From IMG/VR virus record IMGVR_UViG_3300046513_000329, positions 1 to 27,459 of that record: a stretch of 27,459 bases of DNA. The stretch is one strand, 5' to 3'. The translations under genes and the position numbers were made by a program. Below are positions 19,569 to 27,459 of the stretch, piece by piece. The notes below the pieces were generated by a model, which searched no databases, was not told where the DNA came from, and worked only from the letters and a program-made list of their open reading frames with translations. Each line of letters begins with the position of its first letter. Within the stretch, counting starts at the first letter, position 1. The DNA is from a virus.

Positions 19569-19655
19569 AATCAGTAGGTCCCGGGTTCGACTCCTGGTGC
19601 CGGCACCATACAAAACGAAGCCCCTGCAGAAATGCAGGGGCTTTGTCGTTTCTGG
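19569..19655 (+). repeat. Attachment repeat copy 1: tRNA-Thr(TGT) 3' half plus terminator
   Basis: From 19564 the sequence reads as the 3' half of tRNA-Thr: anticodon loop CTTGTAA, stem TCAGT, T arm (CCGGG, TTCGACT, CCTGG), acceptor TGCCGGC and ACCA ending at 19608. The 5' half is missing, and the anticodon-stem partner upstream is broken (TCTGC where ACTGA is needed), so this is a remnant, not a gene. 84 of 87 bases match 25004-25090. It is the likely attR of the prophage; the intact tRNA gene should lie left of the window. Confidence 0.8.
19619..19646 (+). terminator. Rho-independent-type terminator of the tRNA-Thr remnant, copy 1
   Basis: AGCCCCTGCA (19619-19628) pairs perfectly with TGCAGGGGCT (19633-19642) around GAAA, followed by TTGT. 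The same hairpin is present in copy 2. A second small hairpin, GAGGTT/AACCTC (19655-19671), follows. Confidence 0.75.
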
Positions 19656-19689
19656 AGGTTAAAAAAACCTCACGCCAAATCGTGAAGAC

Positions 19690-19716: not shown

Positions 19717-20292
19717 CTAACTCCGCGGACGATCCTTAATGCCCGGCTCGTTGGCAATCGAATCCGTCAGTGCGTGCCCGATTCTCAATGCCATTTCGAG
19801 CAAATCTGCGGTTTTGCCAAAATCATTAGGATCATTAGTTCCGACAGCCAACCTCCCCCCAGGTACAACATCCAACCTGACGCTGTCAGCCAGTTGGTGA
19901 AACCGGACGATTTCTCTCGCATCATCTGCGGCGAGTACTCCCAACTTCGTAACATTTCCCTGATAAACCCTGTTGAACTGGCTATCGATGTCAACTTCAT
20001 AGGATTCGGTAATATTCGAGAAGACACTCATTACGGATCCCTGCCGAGCGGCTAACAACTTCTGTCTATCCCGAAGGGCAGGGAGATATCCTCTCAGCTC
20101 AACGATATCTACAAGGGCCGCCACTTCAGCCAACAGTGAAGCTTTCACACTCGCACTCTCCCGCTCCGATTGCCTATTCCAAAGCAACTGCGGTGCTTTT
20201 ATCGACACCCCACCTGATACCACTGCGACCACAATCGCAGTCCAGTTAGCAGCAGCCAACGACTCGATTAACGGCGACCAATCAATCTCCAT
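19717..20292 (-). CDS. One-TM protein, unknown function
   Basis: A 191-aa protein (MEIDWSPLIESLAAANWTAI) with one N-terminal membrane span (about 17-38, WTAIVVAVVSGGVSIKAPQL) and a cytoplasmic helical domain (ERESASVKASLLAEVAALVD; YQGNVTKLGVLAADDAREIV). The start at 20292 follows GGAGG; a longer frame begins at 20322. It reads away from the operon at 20640. No family is assigned with confidence. It is the first gene inside the island. Confidence 0.7.
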   Translation of the reverse strand: MEIDWSPLIESLAAANWTAIVVAVVSGGVSIKAPQLLWNRQSERESASVKASLLAEVAALVDIVELRGYLPALRDRQKLLAARQGSVMSVFSNITESYEVDIDSQFNRVYQGNVTKLGVLAADDAREIVRFHQLADSVRLDVVPGGRLAVGTNDPNDFGKTADLLEMALRIGHALTDSIANEPGIKDRPRS

Positions 20293-20387
20293 CCCCCACC
20301 TCCCCTTCACCCACCAGCCCAAACGAAAGCGGATTCAACTTCACCACCTCCGCCAAATGCCCAGGGCTAAAATGCGCATACCTCATC

Positions 20388-20445
20388 ACGATAGTCATAG
20401 CCATAGCCATAGCCATAGCCATAGCCATAGCCATGACTCTATCGT
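20388..20445. repeat. (CATAGC)n microsatellite inside an inverted repeat
   Basis: A six-base unit, CATAGC, is repeated 6.5 times without error (20396-20434). It is flanked by arms ACGATA (20388-20393) and TATCGT (20440-20445), with GTCAT/ATGAC next to the repeat, so the tract sits in the loop of a possible cruciform. It is non-coding, about 200 bp upstream of the operon. Hexamer tracts vary in copy number by slippage. Confidence 0.85.
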
Positions 20446-20506: not shown

Positions 20507-20532
20507 ATGGCAATGGCAATGGCAATGGCAAT
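20507..20532. repeat. (ATGGCA)n microsatellite next to the operon promoter
   Basis: Unit ATGGCA is repeated 4.3 times (20507-20532) and ends close to the position expected for the -35 of the downstream promoter. It is a second, different hexanucleotide tract about 70 bp from the first. Confidence 0.85.
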
Positions 20533-20639: not shown

Positions 20640-21194
20640 ATGGTTTTTTTTCTTGCAGGGGTTCACGGTGTGGGAAAAACGAGCCTTTGCTCCAGGCTAG
20701 CAGAAACGCTGAAAATCCCCTCCATTAGTGCCAGCCAGCTGATTAAACAGCAAGGCGAATTAGAAGCGTGGACCTCAGATAAAAAAACCGTAGAGATCTC
20801 AAGCAACCAGCAAAAATTGCTGTCGGCTATACGTACATACGAAAAGCAAACTGAGGCCTGGTTACTAGATGGTCATTTCGCTCTGCTGGATCACTCAGGG
20901 CGCATCACGCAAATAGAACAAAATGTCTTTTACGCAATGCATTTATCTGCAGTTGTATTTATTGAGGATGATCCTTTTGCTATAGCGCTGAGATTAGAGA
21001 AGAGGGACAATGTCCAATGGGATGCCGGCTTAATTACTAAACTACAACGAGCCGAGAAAGAAGGCGCTCTGAACTTCTGCAAAAAAACCGATACACCTTT
21101 ACTAATTGCTATTCCGTCAGATTTCGAACAAGTACGCGAATTTATTATAAAAGGCATAGCAAAAGACAGTATCAACGTCAAAGGATTGAGATGA
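20640..21194 (+). CDS. P-loop kinase-like ATP-binding protein
   Basis: A 184-aa protein with an early Walker A, GVHGVGKTS (7-15), a Walker B-like LLDGHF (75-80) and a possible lid segment, RLEKRD (118-123). Size and layout resemble adenylate/nucleoside kinase-type P-loop proteins. SASQLIKQQGE (about 30-40) could contact substrate. The substrate is not known. It is the first gene of the four-gene operon, coupled to the next by ATGA. It is AT-rich compared with the prophage, which suggests transfer. Confidence 0.75.
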   Translation: MVFFLAGVHGVGKTSLCSRLAETLKIPSISASQLIKQQGELEAWTSDKKTVEISSNQQKLLSAIRTYEKQTEAWLLDGHFALLDHSGRITQIEQNVFYAMHLSAVVFIEDDPFAIALRLEKRDNVQWDAGLITKLQRAEKEGALNFCKKTDTPLLIAIPSDFEQVREFIIKGIAKDSINVKGLR

Positions 21195-22249
21195 AAAATT
21201 TAAAATATTGCAGCTTTGACAAAGTAGATATATCAGACGTTTTTTTTGACTCTCTCAAACTTGACTATATAGGATTTGAGGCATGGTTCAAAAAAAAGGA
21301 ACTAGCTGGCGAGCTAGCTTATGTCTTTTACAATTCAAAGAATAAAATTGACGGCTTTTTATATCTGAAAGCTGAAACAGGTGTGGACGAGGGAATCGAT
21401 CCACCGCTCCGGGTCGTTTCGACATTAAAAGTTGGAACTTTAAAGATCAACGCTCACGGCACTAAACTAGGCGAACGTTTCATAAAGAAAATATTTGACC
21501 ACGCCATTAATGGCGGATTCGAGCAAATATATGTCACCGTGTTTTCCAAGCACGAAAATTTGATATCACTTTTTGAACGCTATGGATTCGAAAATTATTC
21601 GACCAAGGTAACACCTGATGGTGAAGAACAAGTTTTAGTACGCCAGATGCAGACACTCTCAGGTGACGTGGTAAAAGAATTTCCATTATTCAACTTTGAA
21701 GACCGAAAATACTATCTTTTAGCTATATACCCAGAATATCACTCCGCCTTCTTGCCAGACTCAATACTAAACAACGAAAACCATGACATTGTACAAGATG
21801 TATCTCATACCAATAGCATCCACAAGGTTTTCATATCAGGCATCGCAAGAACCAAGGCAATGAAACCTGGCGACCTTGTACTTATTTATCGAACTTCGGA
21901 TGGCAAAGGCAAAGCTTATTATCGCTCTGTGGCATCATCCATTGGTGTTGTCGAGGAAGTAAGACAAATTAAGTCATTCAATTCAGAATCAGAATTCATC
22001 AAATACACCAAACCTTATAGCATTTTTACGCTCGCACAACTTAAAGAGTATTTTACTAACAAGAAGAAATCATATATAATTAAGTTTACGTATAATGCCG
22101 CTCTTAAAAAAAGGATTATTAGAAAGAGGCTCATGGAGGAGTGCATGATTAGCACCCGCACCCGTTGGGACTTCATGTCGTTAACAGAGGCGCAAATTAA
22201 ATGGGTTGCTGCGGCAGGAGAAATTAATGAAGGTCTTATTGTCGATTAA
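21191..22249 (+). CDS. GNAT acetyltransferase fused to EVE/PUA-like domain
   Basis: A 352-aa two-domain protein. Residues 1-155 look like a GNAT: a beta strand with TLKINAHGTKLGERFIKKIF in the acetyl-CoA loop position, then YVTVFSKHENLISLFERYGF, the typical last GNAT motif. Residues about 170-350 look like an EVE/PUA-fold domain: YYLLAIYPEYHSAFLPDSIL, then VFISGIARTKAMKPGDLVLI and YRSVASSIGVVEEVRQIKSF. Such folds bind modified bases or RNA. The classical Q/RxxGxG/A is not clear (AHGTKLGER), so catalysis is uncertain. It overlaps the next gene by 23 nt. Confidence 0.72.
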   Translation: MKNLKYCSFDKVDISDVFFDSLKLDYIGFEAWFKKKELAGELAYVFYNSKNKIDGFLYLKAETGVDEGIDPPLRVVSTLKVGTLKINAHGTKLGERFIKKIFDHAINGGFEQIYVTVFSKHENLISLFERYGFENYSTKVTPDGEEQVLVRQMQTLSGDVVKEFPLFNFEDRKYYLLAIYPEYHSAFLPDSILNNENHDIVQDVSHTNSIHKVFISGIARTKAMKPGDLVLIYRTSDGKGKAYYRSVASSIGVVEEVRQIKSFNSESEFIKYTKPYSIFTLAQLKEYFTNKKKSYIIKFTYNAALKKRIIRKRLMEECMISTRTRWDFMSLTEAQIKWVAAAGEINEGLIVD

Positions 22250-22640
22250 ACCGGAATACGCGAATAAAATATTGAGTGGCGAGAAACGGTTTGAATTCCG
22301 TAAAGTGTCATTCACTAACGCTTGCGTGAAAACCGTTGTGATTTATGCCACCAAACCCGTCGGAAAAGTCGTCGGCGAATTCGAAGTCTTGGACATTTAT
22401 AGTGACTCTCCATCAAAAATTTGGGAGAAGACTAAAAAACATGCGGGAATCGACAAGCAATTCTTTGATAGCTATTATGAGGGCAAGCGGATTGCTGTCG
22501 CGATAGCCGTAGGTGAAGTGCAGCGCTATAAGAATCCGATTGAGCTAGCAGAGCTGGGTGGATCGCCAATCGCTCCTCAATCGTTCCGATATATAGAGGC
22601 GTCTGAAGGGAGGCACCAGAGTGAACTGGAGCTTGTGTAA
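22227..22640 (+). CDS. ASCH-domain protein
   Basis: A 137-aa stand-alone ASCH (PUA-like) protein. MKVLLSIKPEYANKILSGEK, RFEFRK and the second strand VVIYATKPVGKVVGEFEV are the classic start of the family. ASCH proteins are thought to act on RNA or nucleosides; E. coli YqfB, of this fold, is an N4-acetylcytidine amidohydrolase. The ATG at 22227 has an excellent SD (GGAG, 7 nt); an upstream TTG is less likely. The start lies inside the GNAT-EVE gene, so translation is coupled. Confidence 0.82.
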   Translation: MKVLLSIKPEYANKILSGEKRFEFRKVSFTNACVKTVVIYATKPVGKVVGEFEVLDIYSDSPSKIWEKTKKHAGIDKQFFDSYYEGKRIAVAIAVGEVQRYKNPIELAELGGSPIAPQSFRYIEASEGRHQSELELV

Positions 22641-23235
22641 GAATCTTTCGATTATCGACTCGGACAAATTGGTCGATAAGACGCATGCAAATGAGATTTC
22701 GTCCTCGATAAAGCTCATTGATAGTCATTTGCTCTCGAAAAGTCCTGAAACGTTTATTACAGCGCTTCCGACAATTATCAAACACCTCAGAGATCTGTCA
22801 GGGCTGTATCCGGAATTTGACACATGGCTGTACAACAAAATGCTTCCAGGCATAGTGTCGGGTGAGCGTAGTATTTTACTTGAGCATCGACGGGGAACGC
22901 TGTCCGGTTTGGCGATTGTTAAGAACAATGAGCTGGAACAGAAACTGTGTTGCTTGCGAGTCCTTCCAGCATTTCAAGGTTCAGGTGTAGGGTTGAGGTT
23001 GTTTGAGCGTGCATTTGAATCACTGAATAATGATCGGCCATTATTGTCAGTTGCCGAAGAGCAGATACCTGTTTTCCAAAAGCTTTTTGATTATTATGGA
23101 TTCGAACTAGAGAAAAAATATAAAGGCTACTATCGCCCATCAAAAGATGAGCTCAGCTTCAATGGTCTTATTGAAGCCGAGCCACCCGCATATCGATGGA
23201 TAGATAGAGTTAAGCCTGTACTACTTGTTAGCTAA
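22621..23235 (+). CDS. GNAT-family acetyltransferase
   Basis: A 204-aa protein with a GTG start after a strong SD (GGGAGG, 8 nt), overlapping the ASCH gene by 20 nt. The acetyl-CoA loop is canonical: LRVLPAFQGSGVGLRLFERA, with QGSGVG at 119-124. VFQKLFDYYGFELEKKYKGY is the usual last motif. The N-terminal 60 residues are helical and specific to this protein. It would transfer an acetyl or acyl group to a protein, tRNA or small molecule. The partner gene products suggest a nucleotide or RNA link (inference). Confidence 0.75.
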   Translation: MNWSLCKNLSIIDSDKLVDKTHANEISSSIKLIDSHLLSKSPETFITALPTIIKHLRDLSGLYPEFDTWLYNKMLPGIVSGERSILLEHRRGTLSGLAIVKNNELEQKLCCLRVLPAFQGSGVGLRLFERAFESLNNDRPLLSVAEEQIPVFQKLFDYYGFELEKKYKGYYRPSKDELSFNGLIEAEPPAYRWIDRVKPVLLVS

Positions 23236-24568
23236 ATACTTTTTTCAAGTACGCCATGGTTTTTCTAGCAACAAATCCTACAGAAGTGATCATTGCGGCC
23301 AAACCAACAAAAATGCACAACCTGGTAAAAGTACTGAATTCGGACTTTATAAGATCCCCCAACAGCTCCCAAGATCCACTTCCTGCCGCGCCGAGGACAA
23401 TTACCAAGATAATAAACCTGACGATAGAGGTAGCATCCGACTTAACCTTCGAGAATCTAGCCAAGACTATTAAGTCCTTGACTTTCTTTTTCTCCCCCTT
23501 TGAGTTCAGTTGTTTACCTGCGGCCGCTGTCCATTGGTATCCCAGATAGTTTCTTACACTGTTTTCAGCAGAAATACCAGTCGAGCTATCCAGCCTTACA
23601 TACTCATTCCATACGTCCTCATCCATTAGAGAACGGTATCCAGAATAACTGCTACTTTGGGAGACGCACTCCTCGCTTCTTTCAGTAGTTAAAAAGCAAT
23701 GAATTTTCTCAAACTCTGGAAAATAAAGTTTTTCGTCACCACTCAGCAACTCCTCAGGTATACCTCGGCGAACATTAATACGAAAATCAACGATTCTGGT
23801 TTCGATAGTCGAACTAATCAGTGCTTTGTCTTTCTGATCAAATACGCTCGTGTAAACCTCAACGGGAATATTTCTGATGCGAAATCGGATATAAGCCGAT
23901 TTTCTAATATTTTCGGCAGTGACACTTTTTAATATAGGAGGTATCCGAACCGTTAAACGGGACGCGGGAGAGCCATCACTGAGATATATCTTAATTATGG
24001 TGAAATGCTGAGAGTTAAGCCTAAGCAGCGAAAACGGTTTCTCATCGTTATTATTCTTTCTAAAACTAATATTGGCAAAATTCCCTTCTGCGAAACCATC
24101 ATAATGAACTATTTCATTAAAAATGGCCGCAACGCTTTTCTCACCATTGAGTCGAGATCCCAGATCACTTATATCTTTTTGCTCTACAGCCCATGGTAAA
24201 TCTACGACTACATGACCTGTGTTGGCTCTATCCCCTATCATCACACCAATATCCATAAAGGGACTGGCCGGAGTTTTACCTATTTCCCATAGGTTGACGT
24301 GAAGCTCATCAGGCAAAGCTTCTGTCAGGAATTTTGGCTCTTTTCGTTGGGTCGTACCAAGAGCTGCCTCGTCTGTAGATTTAGGCTCACTCTGAGCATC
24401 TCTATGTGCCGGCGGCTCCTCTTGGGGTTCAGTCGCAGAGTCACGGCCATAAGAACAGCATTTCTCCGATTCCATGGGTAGGAAACGGACCAATATTCCT
24501 GAAAACGGATAGGGCATCTGACTAATTCCATGCTCGCGACAATTGGATCCATATATGCGCCATTCCAC
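23228..24568 (-). CDS. Large membrane-anchored protein, unknown function
   Basis: A 446-aa protein. Residues 1-375 are soluble, with an acidic, Pro-rich stretch (about 45-75). Two C-terminal spans follow (about 388-412, VRFIILVIVLGAAG; about 420-440, CIFVGLAAMITSVGFVA) with a short basic tail. The soluble part has beta-rich segments (TGHVVVDLPWAVEQKDISDL) and a motif-like YLGYQWTAAAGKQLNSKGEK. No family is recognised. The first Met (24568) has a weak SD; starts near 24520 (MPYPFSG) are possible. It is convergent with the operon and overlaps its end by 8 nt. Confidence 0.65.
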   Translation of the reverse strand: MEWRIYGSNCREHGISQMPYPFSGILVRFLPMESEKCCSYGRDSATEPQEEPPAHRDAQSEPKSTDEAALGTTQRKEPKFLTEALPDELHVNLWEIGKTPASPFMDIGVMIGDRANTGHVVVDLPWAVEQKDISDLGSRLNGEKSVAAIFNEIVHYDGFAEGNFANISFRKNNNDEKPFSLLRLNSQHFTIIKIYLSDGSPASRLTVRIPPILKSVTAENIRKSAYIRFRIRNIPVEVYTSVFDQKDKALISSTIETRIVDFRINVRRGIPEELLSGDEKLYFPEFEKIHCFLTTERSEECVSQSSSYSGYRSLMDEDVWNEYVRLDSSTGISAENSVRNYLGYQWTAAAGKQLNSKGEKKKVKDLIVLARFSKVKSDATSIVRFIILVIVLGAAGSGSWELLGDLIKSEFSTFTRLCIFVGLAAMITSVGFVARKTMAYLKKVFS

Positions 24569-25003: not shown

Positions 25004-25090
25004 AATCAGTAGGTCCCGGGTTCGACTCCTGGTGCCGGCACCATACAAAACAAAGCCCCTGCAGAAATGCAGGGGCTTTGTTGTCTCTGG
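25004..25090 (+). repeat. Attachment repeat copy 2: tRNA-Thr 3' part plus terminator
   Basis: It is identical to 19569-19655 except for three bases (25052, 25082 and 25085). It starts at AATCAGT of the anticodon arm; the preceding CTTG lacks the T of the anticodon TGT, so no tRNA is encoded. CCA is at 25041-25043. The terminator hairpin is at 25054-25077. It marks the right end of the island and the join with chromosomal flank. Confidence 0.8.
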
Positions 25091-25159
25091 GGGGTGTTTA
25101 TATTTTTAGCTGCATTTCAGATTCAGTAGAAATAGCGCACCTCCTCCGCACACGTCGAT

Positions 25160-26274: not shown

Positions 26275-26955
26275 TCAGACCTGACTGATTTCAAGCACAA
26301 ACGAAATCTTCTGCTGAGTCGCACTCCACACATAGCGCAAATGCTTACCCTGCTTCGGAATCGACACCGCAGGCGGCCGAAACGCGGCGACGCATTCATG
26401 GCCCGGCAGGCGAACGCTGTTGTAGAGCAGTCCCCACGACTCGGTTTCGCGCAGTTGACGGGCGAATAGCTGAGACGGCCCATAAGCCTCAGGATCCGGA
26501 TTGTGCAGTTCGGGATGATCGTGACGAATGTCGTGCAACGGTTTAACCACCCGATTAACGTAAGTGCGCATGGTCAACTCAAGATCCGCTTCCTGGGTCG
26601 CCGCCAGAAATCGCTTCTGGTGATAACAGGTCTCTGCGATGGCAGCCGCCTGACTGCTCGCAGCGTAGTAAACGCCGAAGGTGCCGTCACAGAAACGACT
26701 GCGTTTGCCAATATGAGTAAACGCAGCCATCACCGGAGTCGAGCCGGGGCCAGAGAGTCGGTCTTCGGGTCGCACTCGGGCAAGTACCCCGGCCTGCTCG
26801 ATCAGACGATCATTGGTCAGCGCTTCAATTGCGTAGGCAACTTCCAGATCTTCGGGATCGAGCACGTCTTCGAACAACGCAATCGGCGGGAAGCTGCTGT
26901 TGACGATCCGATAGGCTCGCGTCCACGCCACATCAACCAAATCGGGCGCCTTCAA
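26275..26955 (-). CDS. RES-domain toxin
   Basis: A 226-aa RES toxin; characterised members (Pseudomonas putida Res, Mycobacterium MbcT) degrade cellular NAD+. Seen are WTRAYRIVNS (11-20, with candidate catalytic Arg), SRFCDGTFGVYYAASSQAAA (86-105), IAETCYH with Glu108, and SWGLLYNSVRLPGHECVAAF (173-192, with Ser180). I chose the TTG at 26955 because it overlaps the antitoxin stop by four bases (TTGA); upstream frame lies in the antitoxin gene. It is the second gene of a two-gene operon. Confidence 0.85.
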   Translation of the reverse strand: MKAPDLVDVAWTRAYRIVNSSFPPIALFEDVLDPEDLEVAYAIEALTNDRLIEQAGVLARVRPEDRLSGPGSTPVMAAFTHIGKRSRFCDGTFGVYYAASSQAAAIAETCYHQKRFLAATQEADLELTMRTYVNRVVKPLHDIRHDHPELHNPDPEAYGPSQLFARQLRETESWGLLYNSVRLPGHECVAAFRPPAVSIPKQGKHLRYVWSATQQKISFVLEISQV

Positions 26956-27359
26956 CCGCGTACCCCATCGAGATAGCGACGCACATCGGCGATGTCGATC
27001 ACTCTCCCCGCCAGCATGTAATCCAATGCAGTTTGCCCGTTGAACGGCGCCGCTGTGTTTGGACTGCTGACCCACGTATAGGCGCGCTCACGGTTATTGC
27101 TGAAGATGATGCTCAACGCCTTGTGAATGCCCATCAGGTAGGAGATGCGCTCAAGGGTGTCGTTAGGCAGACGTATGTTCGGCAGGTGTTTGTATTTGTA
27201 GAACGTGGTGTTACCAACGCCGCCGAGTAATGTGCGTTGCTGCTCTGCGCTGCAGCCCCAACGCTCCATAAGGTTGAAGAAGAACTTCAGCGCAACGCGG
27301 CCGGCTTTGGGGGCGTCGAGTTGTTCGTGTGGGGTGAGGGCTGGGGATGAGGTAGTCAT
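26952..27359 (-). CDS. Xre/MbcA/ParS-type antitoxin
   Basis: A 135-aa antitoxin for the RES toxin. The N-terminal half is an Xre-like HTH (RVALKFFFNLMERWGCSAEQ; RTLLGGVGNTTFYKYK). The C-terminal half is DUF2384-like (LERISYLMGIHKALSIIFSN; AYTWVSSPN; GQTALDYMLAGRVIDIADVR; RYLDGVRG). The ATG at 27359 follows GGAGAGG; the frame extends upstream, but without support. It blocks the toxin and represses its own promoter in known systems. Confidence 0.87.
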   Translation of the reverse strand: MTTSSPALTPHEQLDAPKAGRVALKFFFNLMERWGCSAEQQRTLLGGVGNTTFYKYKHLPNIRLPNDTLERISYLMGIHKALSIIFSNNRERAYTWVSSPNTAAPFNGQTALDYMLAGRVIDIADVRRYLDGVRG

Positions 27360-27374
27360 TGAGCCTCTCCAGAT

Positions 27375-27425
27375 TTGTCTTGCTTTGATACTAGTACATA
27401 TACGAATAAATCGATAAAAAAGCTC
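27375..27425 (-). promoter_or_regulatory. Probable promoter/operator of the RES-Xre operon
   Basis: An AT-rich stretch directly upstream of the antitoxin, with the palindrome TACTAGTA and a wider imperfect dyad (GTATATGTACTAGTATC). It is likely to hold the autoregulated promoter. I cannot place -35 and -10 with confidence. Confidence 0.35.
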
Positions 27426-27459
27426 CGTAAGCGTATTACTGGTTACCACATTCCCCATT

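Follow-up and report, generated by a model that had tools for sequence, protein, structure and literature searches.

What does a compact set of overlapping, AT-rich genes behind a Pseudomonas prophage do, and does it belong to a system that already has a name? The question is raised by an IMG/VR virus record whose full 27,459 bases are the window analyzed here, a Pseudomonas P2-like prophage followed by an AT-rich island. The closest DNA match to the window is Pseudomonas phage UFJF_PfPro, with ~80% identity across half of it. A first-pass annotation had described four overlapping genes forming one plus-strand unit, much richer in AT than the prophage and lying in an island flanked by tRNA repeats, and all of this held on reanalysis. 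The kinase and GNAT-EVE genes overlap by 4 nt, GNAT-EVE and ASCH by 23 nt, and ASCH and GNAT2 by 20 nt; GC content is ~0.39-0.44 in this operon versus ~0.60 in the prophage's left half; and direct repeats of 90 nt bound the island (Table 1). The part of the repeat common to relatives at loci L105 and L106 is the 3' end of tRNA-Thr(TGT), and no intact tRNA was found in the 27,459-nt window. What we have is a small mobile island adjoining a Pseudomonas prophage. Within it, a minus-strand gene at 19717-20322 encodes a 201-residue protein with a hydrophobic segment at its N-terminus and no Pfam match, and perfect or near-perfect hexamer arrays lie directly upstream of the kinase gene, (ATAGCC)7.3 at 20391-20434 and (ATGGCA)4.3 at 20507-20532, where copy-number variation could tune expression. 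Outside the right repeat is a RES-domain toxin (26275-27458, minus strand, Pfam E 4.8e-33) with an antitoxin of the Xre/MbcA/ParS type.

Table 1. Genes of the island unit and the repeats that bound the island, in window coordinates.
Feature	Position	Strand	Remarks
Left attachment repeat	19569..19658		tRNA-Thr(TGT) 3' end and following hairpin
KIN, AAA_17/archaeal-adenylate-kinase-like P-loop kinase	20640..21194	+	Pfam AAA_17 E 1.7e-15
GNAT-EVE fusion (PADLOC PDC-M11A; homologue of phage "GevT toxin")	21191..22249	+	PDC-M11A E 9.9e-138
ASCH (PADLOC PDC-M11B; homologue of phage "GevA antitoxin")	22227..22640	+	ATG at 22227; PDC-M11B E 1.2e-50
GNAT2, EVE-less acetyltransferase	22621..23235	+	Same GNAT subfamily as GNAT-EVE
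X, uncharacterized, predicted cytosolic beta-sandwich and C-terminal membrane hairpin	23228..24568	-	Convergent with GNAT2
Right attachment repeat	25004..25093		96% identical to left repeat

Profile matches bear out the domain calls that had been made for the four genes, kinase, GNAT-EVE, ASCH, and GNAT, the last of these weakly (rimI model E 4e-6). The kinase profile finds archaeal adenylate kinases among solved structures (E ~1e-10), and the ASCH domain is recognized by Pfam at E 2.2e-7. A Pfam scan of the fusion protein gives weak matches to both GNAT and EVE, and its EVE domain, at E 8.8e-6 in the genome search, lies below the Pfam cut-off; its predicted model (pLDDT 90) combines an N-terminal GNAT fold, to which many GNATs are similar and N-terminal acetyltransferases most of all (Z ~15), with a C-terminal PUA-like domain that matches ZmASCH. 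The first-pass annotation knew of no named system with this gene set, yet three names apply to parts of it. In PADLOC-DB the window's GNAT-EVE and ASCH proteins are the A and B components of the phage-defence candidate PDC-M11, although no PDC-M11 model recognizes the kinase or X, and the A model matches GNAT2 only weakly (E 3e-4). In Escherichia phage PhiR47_2 (PV340567) a homologous pair, 45% and 61% identical and with the same 23-nt overlap, is annotated "GevT toxin / GevA antitoxin", but consists of two genes only. The third name is that of the (PIN)-GNAT-EVE operons of Bell, Wolf and Koonin (2020, PMC7641849), a module that the accessible text of their article traces to Iyer et al. (2013), describes as almost always containing ASCH and often an AAA_17 ATPase, places commonly in beta- and gammaproteobacterial prophages, and predicts to be a toxin-antitoxin (TA) system. 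The window has the GNAT fused to a C-terminal EVE, the adjacent ASCH, the AAA_17 kinase, and the prophage context; it differs in having no PIN domain, and the same text makes no mention of a second, EVE-less GNAT or of X. Given the PDC-M11 matches, the description of Bell and coauthors, and the GevT/GevA annotation, three of the four genes of the overlapping set are therefore of an already known, predicted kind. The first-pass idea of a defence or TA-like module agrees with this published prediction and with the PADLOC listing of a candidate; in the accessible literature we found no published experiment on defence by, or toxicity of, GNAT-EVE/ASCH modules, no paper on experiments behind the GevT/GevA annotation, and no literature on the name PDC-M11.

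GNAT-EVE/ASCH modules are widespread, with at least 480 confirmed GNAT-EVE matches in one genome scan. Profiles of the five families were scored around the best 80 of these matches and a similar number of viral loci. Of 114 GNAT-EVE/ASCH pairs, 103 overlap by exactly 23 nt, which is not chance and is expected of translationally coupled partners. After removal of near-copies, 133 loci remained, a set that takes in plasmid loci found via X or GNAT2; ASCH is present at 131 of them, the kinase at 42, X at 29, and GNAT2 at 18. Most GNAT-EVE loci thus carry only ASCH, so GNAT2, X, and the kinase are not needed for the core. Where GNAT2 does occur, X and the kinase are both present (18 of 18 dereplicated loci; Fisher p 4e-15 for X and 5e-11 for the kinase), and the same holds for 12 of 12 among 76 genome loci chosen by GNAT-EVE only (p 2e-10 and 9e-8).

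It follows that the unit is not one of four genes, as had been supposed, but of five, with the convergent gene X, missed earlier, included. X overlaps GNAT2 by 8 nt in the window, and the two are immediate neighbours in all 19 loci where they were compared, on the same strand in 12 and opposed in 7; GNAT2 is the inseparable neighbour of X across several gene orders. X and GNAT2, searched for separately in an order-level sample of 397 genomes, turned up in the same 4 genomes and are adjacent in all of them (one of the 4 being the chosen sample centre and the other three independent of that choice). This previously unnoticed fifth gene and its pairing with GNAT2 are what is new here. All five plasmid matches, and locus L018 as well, adjoin a GNAT-EVE gene; at L017, which ends at a contig end, X, GNAT2, and ASCH are visible.

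Conservation of the neighbourhood in unrelated genomes, which the first-pass annotation had proposed as a check, was found in alpha-, beta-, and gammaproteobacteria, Nitrosophilus, and Paenibacillus. The extended set has at least five gene orders (in gammaproteobacteria, Methylophilus, alphaproteobacteria, Paenibacillus, and Nitrosophilus), that of gammaproteobacteria being kinase, GNAT-EVE, ASCH, and GNAT2 with X reversed; the Pseudomonas CIP-10 plasmid has the same five-gene layout as the window. In a tree of GNAT-EVE proteins most extended loci group in a single clade of Pseudomonadota, Paenibacillus and Nitrosophilus lie far off (the latter on a long branch of unsure placement), and X alone accompanies GNAT-EVE in a separate enterobacterial prophage clade. 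Extended and X-only loci are scattered in this way, so the link has been made, or kept, more than once. If the five genes were instead unrelated cargo gathered in one island, as islands at tRNA genes do gather (the 201-residue gene may be an example), the same families should not recur in distant phyla in shuffled order, nor should X and GNAT2 be found in identical genome sets; co-occurrence refutes chance for these five genes, and we regard this explanation as highly improbable. Some of 12 extended loci have genes for pAgo, SIR2/HerA, and Rmr-like proteins nearby, each recognized by one protein match, and since these 12 loci have no control set we do not count such neighbours as evidence.

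What X contributes must be read largely from its predicted structure. Its sequence has no match in Pfam, PADLOC, or the PDB; a viral fold library returned only matches of low TM score, and no X was found in isolated phage genomes with an enterobacterial X as query. PADLOC CARF_TM matches one X relative weakly (E 0.008) over the membrane segment only, and we rejected that identity for X. The predicted model (pLDDT 80.8) is a beta-sandwich with a C-terminal helical hairpin, and residues 84-377 resemble ribophorin I of OST (VIA Z 11.3, rmsd 3.4, 177 aligned) and the N-terminal saddle domain of M1 aminopeptidases (Z 8.7, rmsd 4.0, 173 aligned). With ~6-10% identity to either, no sequence match, and no metallopeptidase domain in X, this is a resemblance between a modeled fold and known ones only. 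One or two hydrophobic segments lie at the C-terminus of X, and nearly all members have hydrophobic helices there. Basic residues flank both segments in X, making it likely that the main domain is cytosolic. The invariant residues H90, N92, W94, Y226, R228, R230, R263, N265, R268, R312, W320, Y323, and W346, polar and aromatic, suggest a putative binding site. Abortive systems often use membrane proteins as effectors, and X, with its C-terminal hydrophobic segments, nearly always accompanies a GNAT of the GNAT2/GNAT-EVE subfamily, so X could be the killing effector that disrupts the membrane, with GNAT2, the kinase, and ASCH as its sensors or modifiers. Most of X, however, is taken up by a large soluble domain that is conserved and has invariant residues of the types H/N/W/R/Y/D, as would suit a binding protein better than a pore, and we consider an effector role quite unlikely.

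The ASCH protein was the basis of another proposal, that the unit might remove an acyl mark from a nucleotide or RNA in the manner of YqfB. That N4-acetylcytidine amidohydrolase has a catalytic Lys21-Thr24-Glu74 triad and also uses Arg26, and its Thr24Ala variant is inactive. When 174 ASCH sequences are compared with the E. coli K-12 yqfB gene as reference, Lys21 and Arg26 are kept, but the Glu74 column is not Glu and the Thr24 nucleophile is replaced by Glu in 172 and by Gln in 2. Hydrolysis by the YqfB mechanism, and with it an N4-acetylcytidine-type eraser, is therefore not supported. The closest solved structure is instead ZmASCH of Zymomonas mobilis (E 9e-27), which cleaves single-stranded RNA with an RNase activity reported as weak (PMC5615036). 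Its Ser128 has an equivalent (PQS) in 173 of the 174 sequences and its Tyr47 motif is found in 162, although its Lys53 aligns with Gly in the ASCH partner. The unit could instead label nucleic acid as self or as belonging to the element, with the GNATs acylating a DNA or RNA base or a nucleotide, the PUA-like domains reading the mark, and the kinase supplying or consuming a nucleotide intermediate. Such a scheme would suit a unit that combines two acyltransferases with two readers of the PUA superfamily, and Iyer et al. (2013) proposed acetylation of bases, according to the accessible text of Bell et al. (PMC7641849). On the other hand, the window's unit has no nuclease partner, its ASCH lacks the YqfB nucleophile, and a membrane-anchored X would have no obvious role in base marking; we find the labeling scheme doubtful.

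The same tRNA-Thr(TGT) 3' end occurs at three Pseudomonas loci (L105:1859-1883, L106:100-124, and L197:1491-1515), beside a kinase-GNAT-EVE-ASCH version at the first two and an X-GNAT2-ASCH-kinase version at the third. That different versions stand beside the same 3' sequence suggests that a single tRNA-Thr attachment site receives differing variants of the system, an apparent integration hotspot in Pseudomonas. The position of the island at such a site behind a P2-like prophage, the frequency of GNAT-EVE loci in prophages generally, and the suggestion in the accessible text of Bell et al. (PMC7641849) of phage protection against restriction would all fit a counter-defence or exclusion device, one that serves to protect the prophage or exclude rivals and not to defend the cell as such. 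But full five-gene sets also occur in chromosomes and plasmids, and such a device would be functionally hard to tell from defence by a mobile element. We judge it unlikely.

Profile searches with X across ~1,187 whole genomes gave 9 loci beyond the starting genomes, 6 of them in genomes from which GNAT-EVE is absent. Two have all five genes and one has X-GNAT-EVE-ASCH; L196 and L197 have X, GNAT2, ASCH, and the kinase without GNAT-EVE, and the other four are degenerate, interrupted by IS elements, or located at contig ends. GNAT2 is also kin to the fusion protein. It aligns with that protein's GNAT domain (hhalign probability 92, E 5e-7), and both have the motif Y-x-x-F-x-x-W-x-x-x-K ahead of the core. 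GNAT2 of the window has a canonical acetyl-CoA loop, QGSGVG, while in GNAT-EVE the loop reads GTKLG, GTLRG, or GTRLG and differs from Q/RxxGxG, for which reason catalysis by GNAT-EVE is not assured from its sequence. A Pfam scan of all proteins of the unit found no ribbon-helix-helix (DUF1778-type) antitoxin, and the partner here is ASCH rather than the RHH protein of GNAT-RHH type II systems of the TacAT/AtaRT kind.

Our best explanation, tentative and given a little under an even chance, is that the island carries an expanded GNAT-EVE/ASCH module, a TA-type anti-phage or element-stabilizing system in which two linked GNAT units share ASCH and the kinase. In the first unit, the GNAT domain of GNAT-EVE would acylate a target selected by the EVE domain, probably modified RNA, for instance a tRNA, and the translationally coupled ASCH would restrain GNAT-EVE or guard the same target. 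In the second, GNAT2 would work with X, whose membrane-anchored cytosolic beta-sandwich may tether it or sense for it. The adenylate-kinase-like protein would play an accessory part by modifying a nucleotide or an RNA end, and it and ASCH, as neutralizer, would be common to both units. The gene content, the homologies, the overlaps, the pairing of X with GNAT2, and the recurrence in distant taxa are observed; that the GNATs are toxic, that RNA is the target, that ASCH is an antitoxin, that X senses or tethers, and that the system defends are inferred. We favour this explanation because of the PDC-M11A and PDC-M11B matches, the published TA prediction, the GevT/GevA annotation, and the 23-nt overlap for the core, and because of the co-occurrence of X, GNAT2, and the kinase, the shuffled orders, the sibling without GNAT-EVE, the kinship of the two GNATs, and the hydrophobic helices of X for the rest. 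The non-canonical loop of GNAT-EVE, defence neighbours at only some loci, and the many ASCH-only loci count against it.

If X, GNAT2, ASCH, and the adenylate-kinase-like protein suffice by themselves, then they may constitute an undescribed four-gene immune or TA system with an acetyltransferase under the control of a membrane-anchored sensor, and the window would be a natural merger of this system with a GevTA-type GNAT-EVE/ASCH pair sharing one ASCH and one kinase; we hold this to be a serious possibility, albeit one that is probably wrong. The expanded module is open to test through natural dissections of the system, namely the constant pairing of GNAT2 with X, a membrane protein that matches no library searched, and the GNAT-EVE-free sibling, which make it testable which GNAT is toxic, what ASCH neutralizes, and what the membrane partner senses.

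Several related arrangements were seen along the way. In some P2-like prophages a second kind of membrane partner, an 8xMP gene (octameric membrane protein family, Pfam E 1.6e-25; L002:7382-7990), lies directly upstream of GNAT-EVE; found at only 2 dereplicated loci, it was rejected as a general alternative to X. A copy of the L197 X/GNAT2 pair (L198:403-3785) has X truncated beside IS21-type transposase and helper-ATPase genes. On a Variovorax plasmid a short GNAT2 relative (L013:5034-5360), with neither X nor GNAT-EVE, has as neighbours a DUF262 gene and a gene with a Wadjet JetD domain. On a Rhizobium plasmid (L019:3273-8539) a GNAT-EVE/ASCH/X unit is directly followed by an ASCH/PIN-GNAT-EVE unit, so that the module occurs there twice in succession, in two versions.
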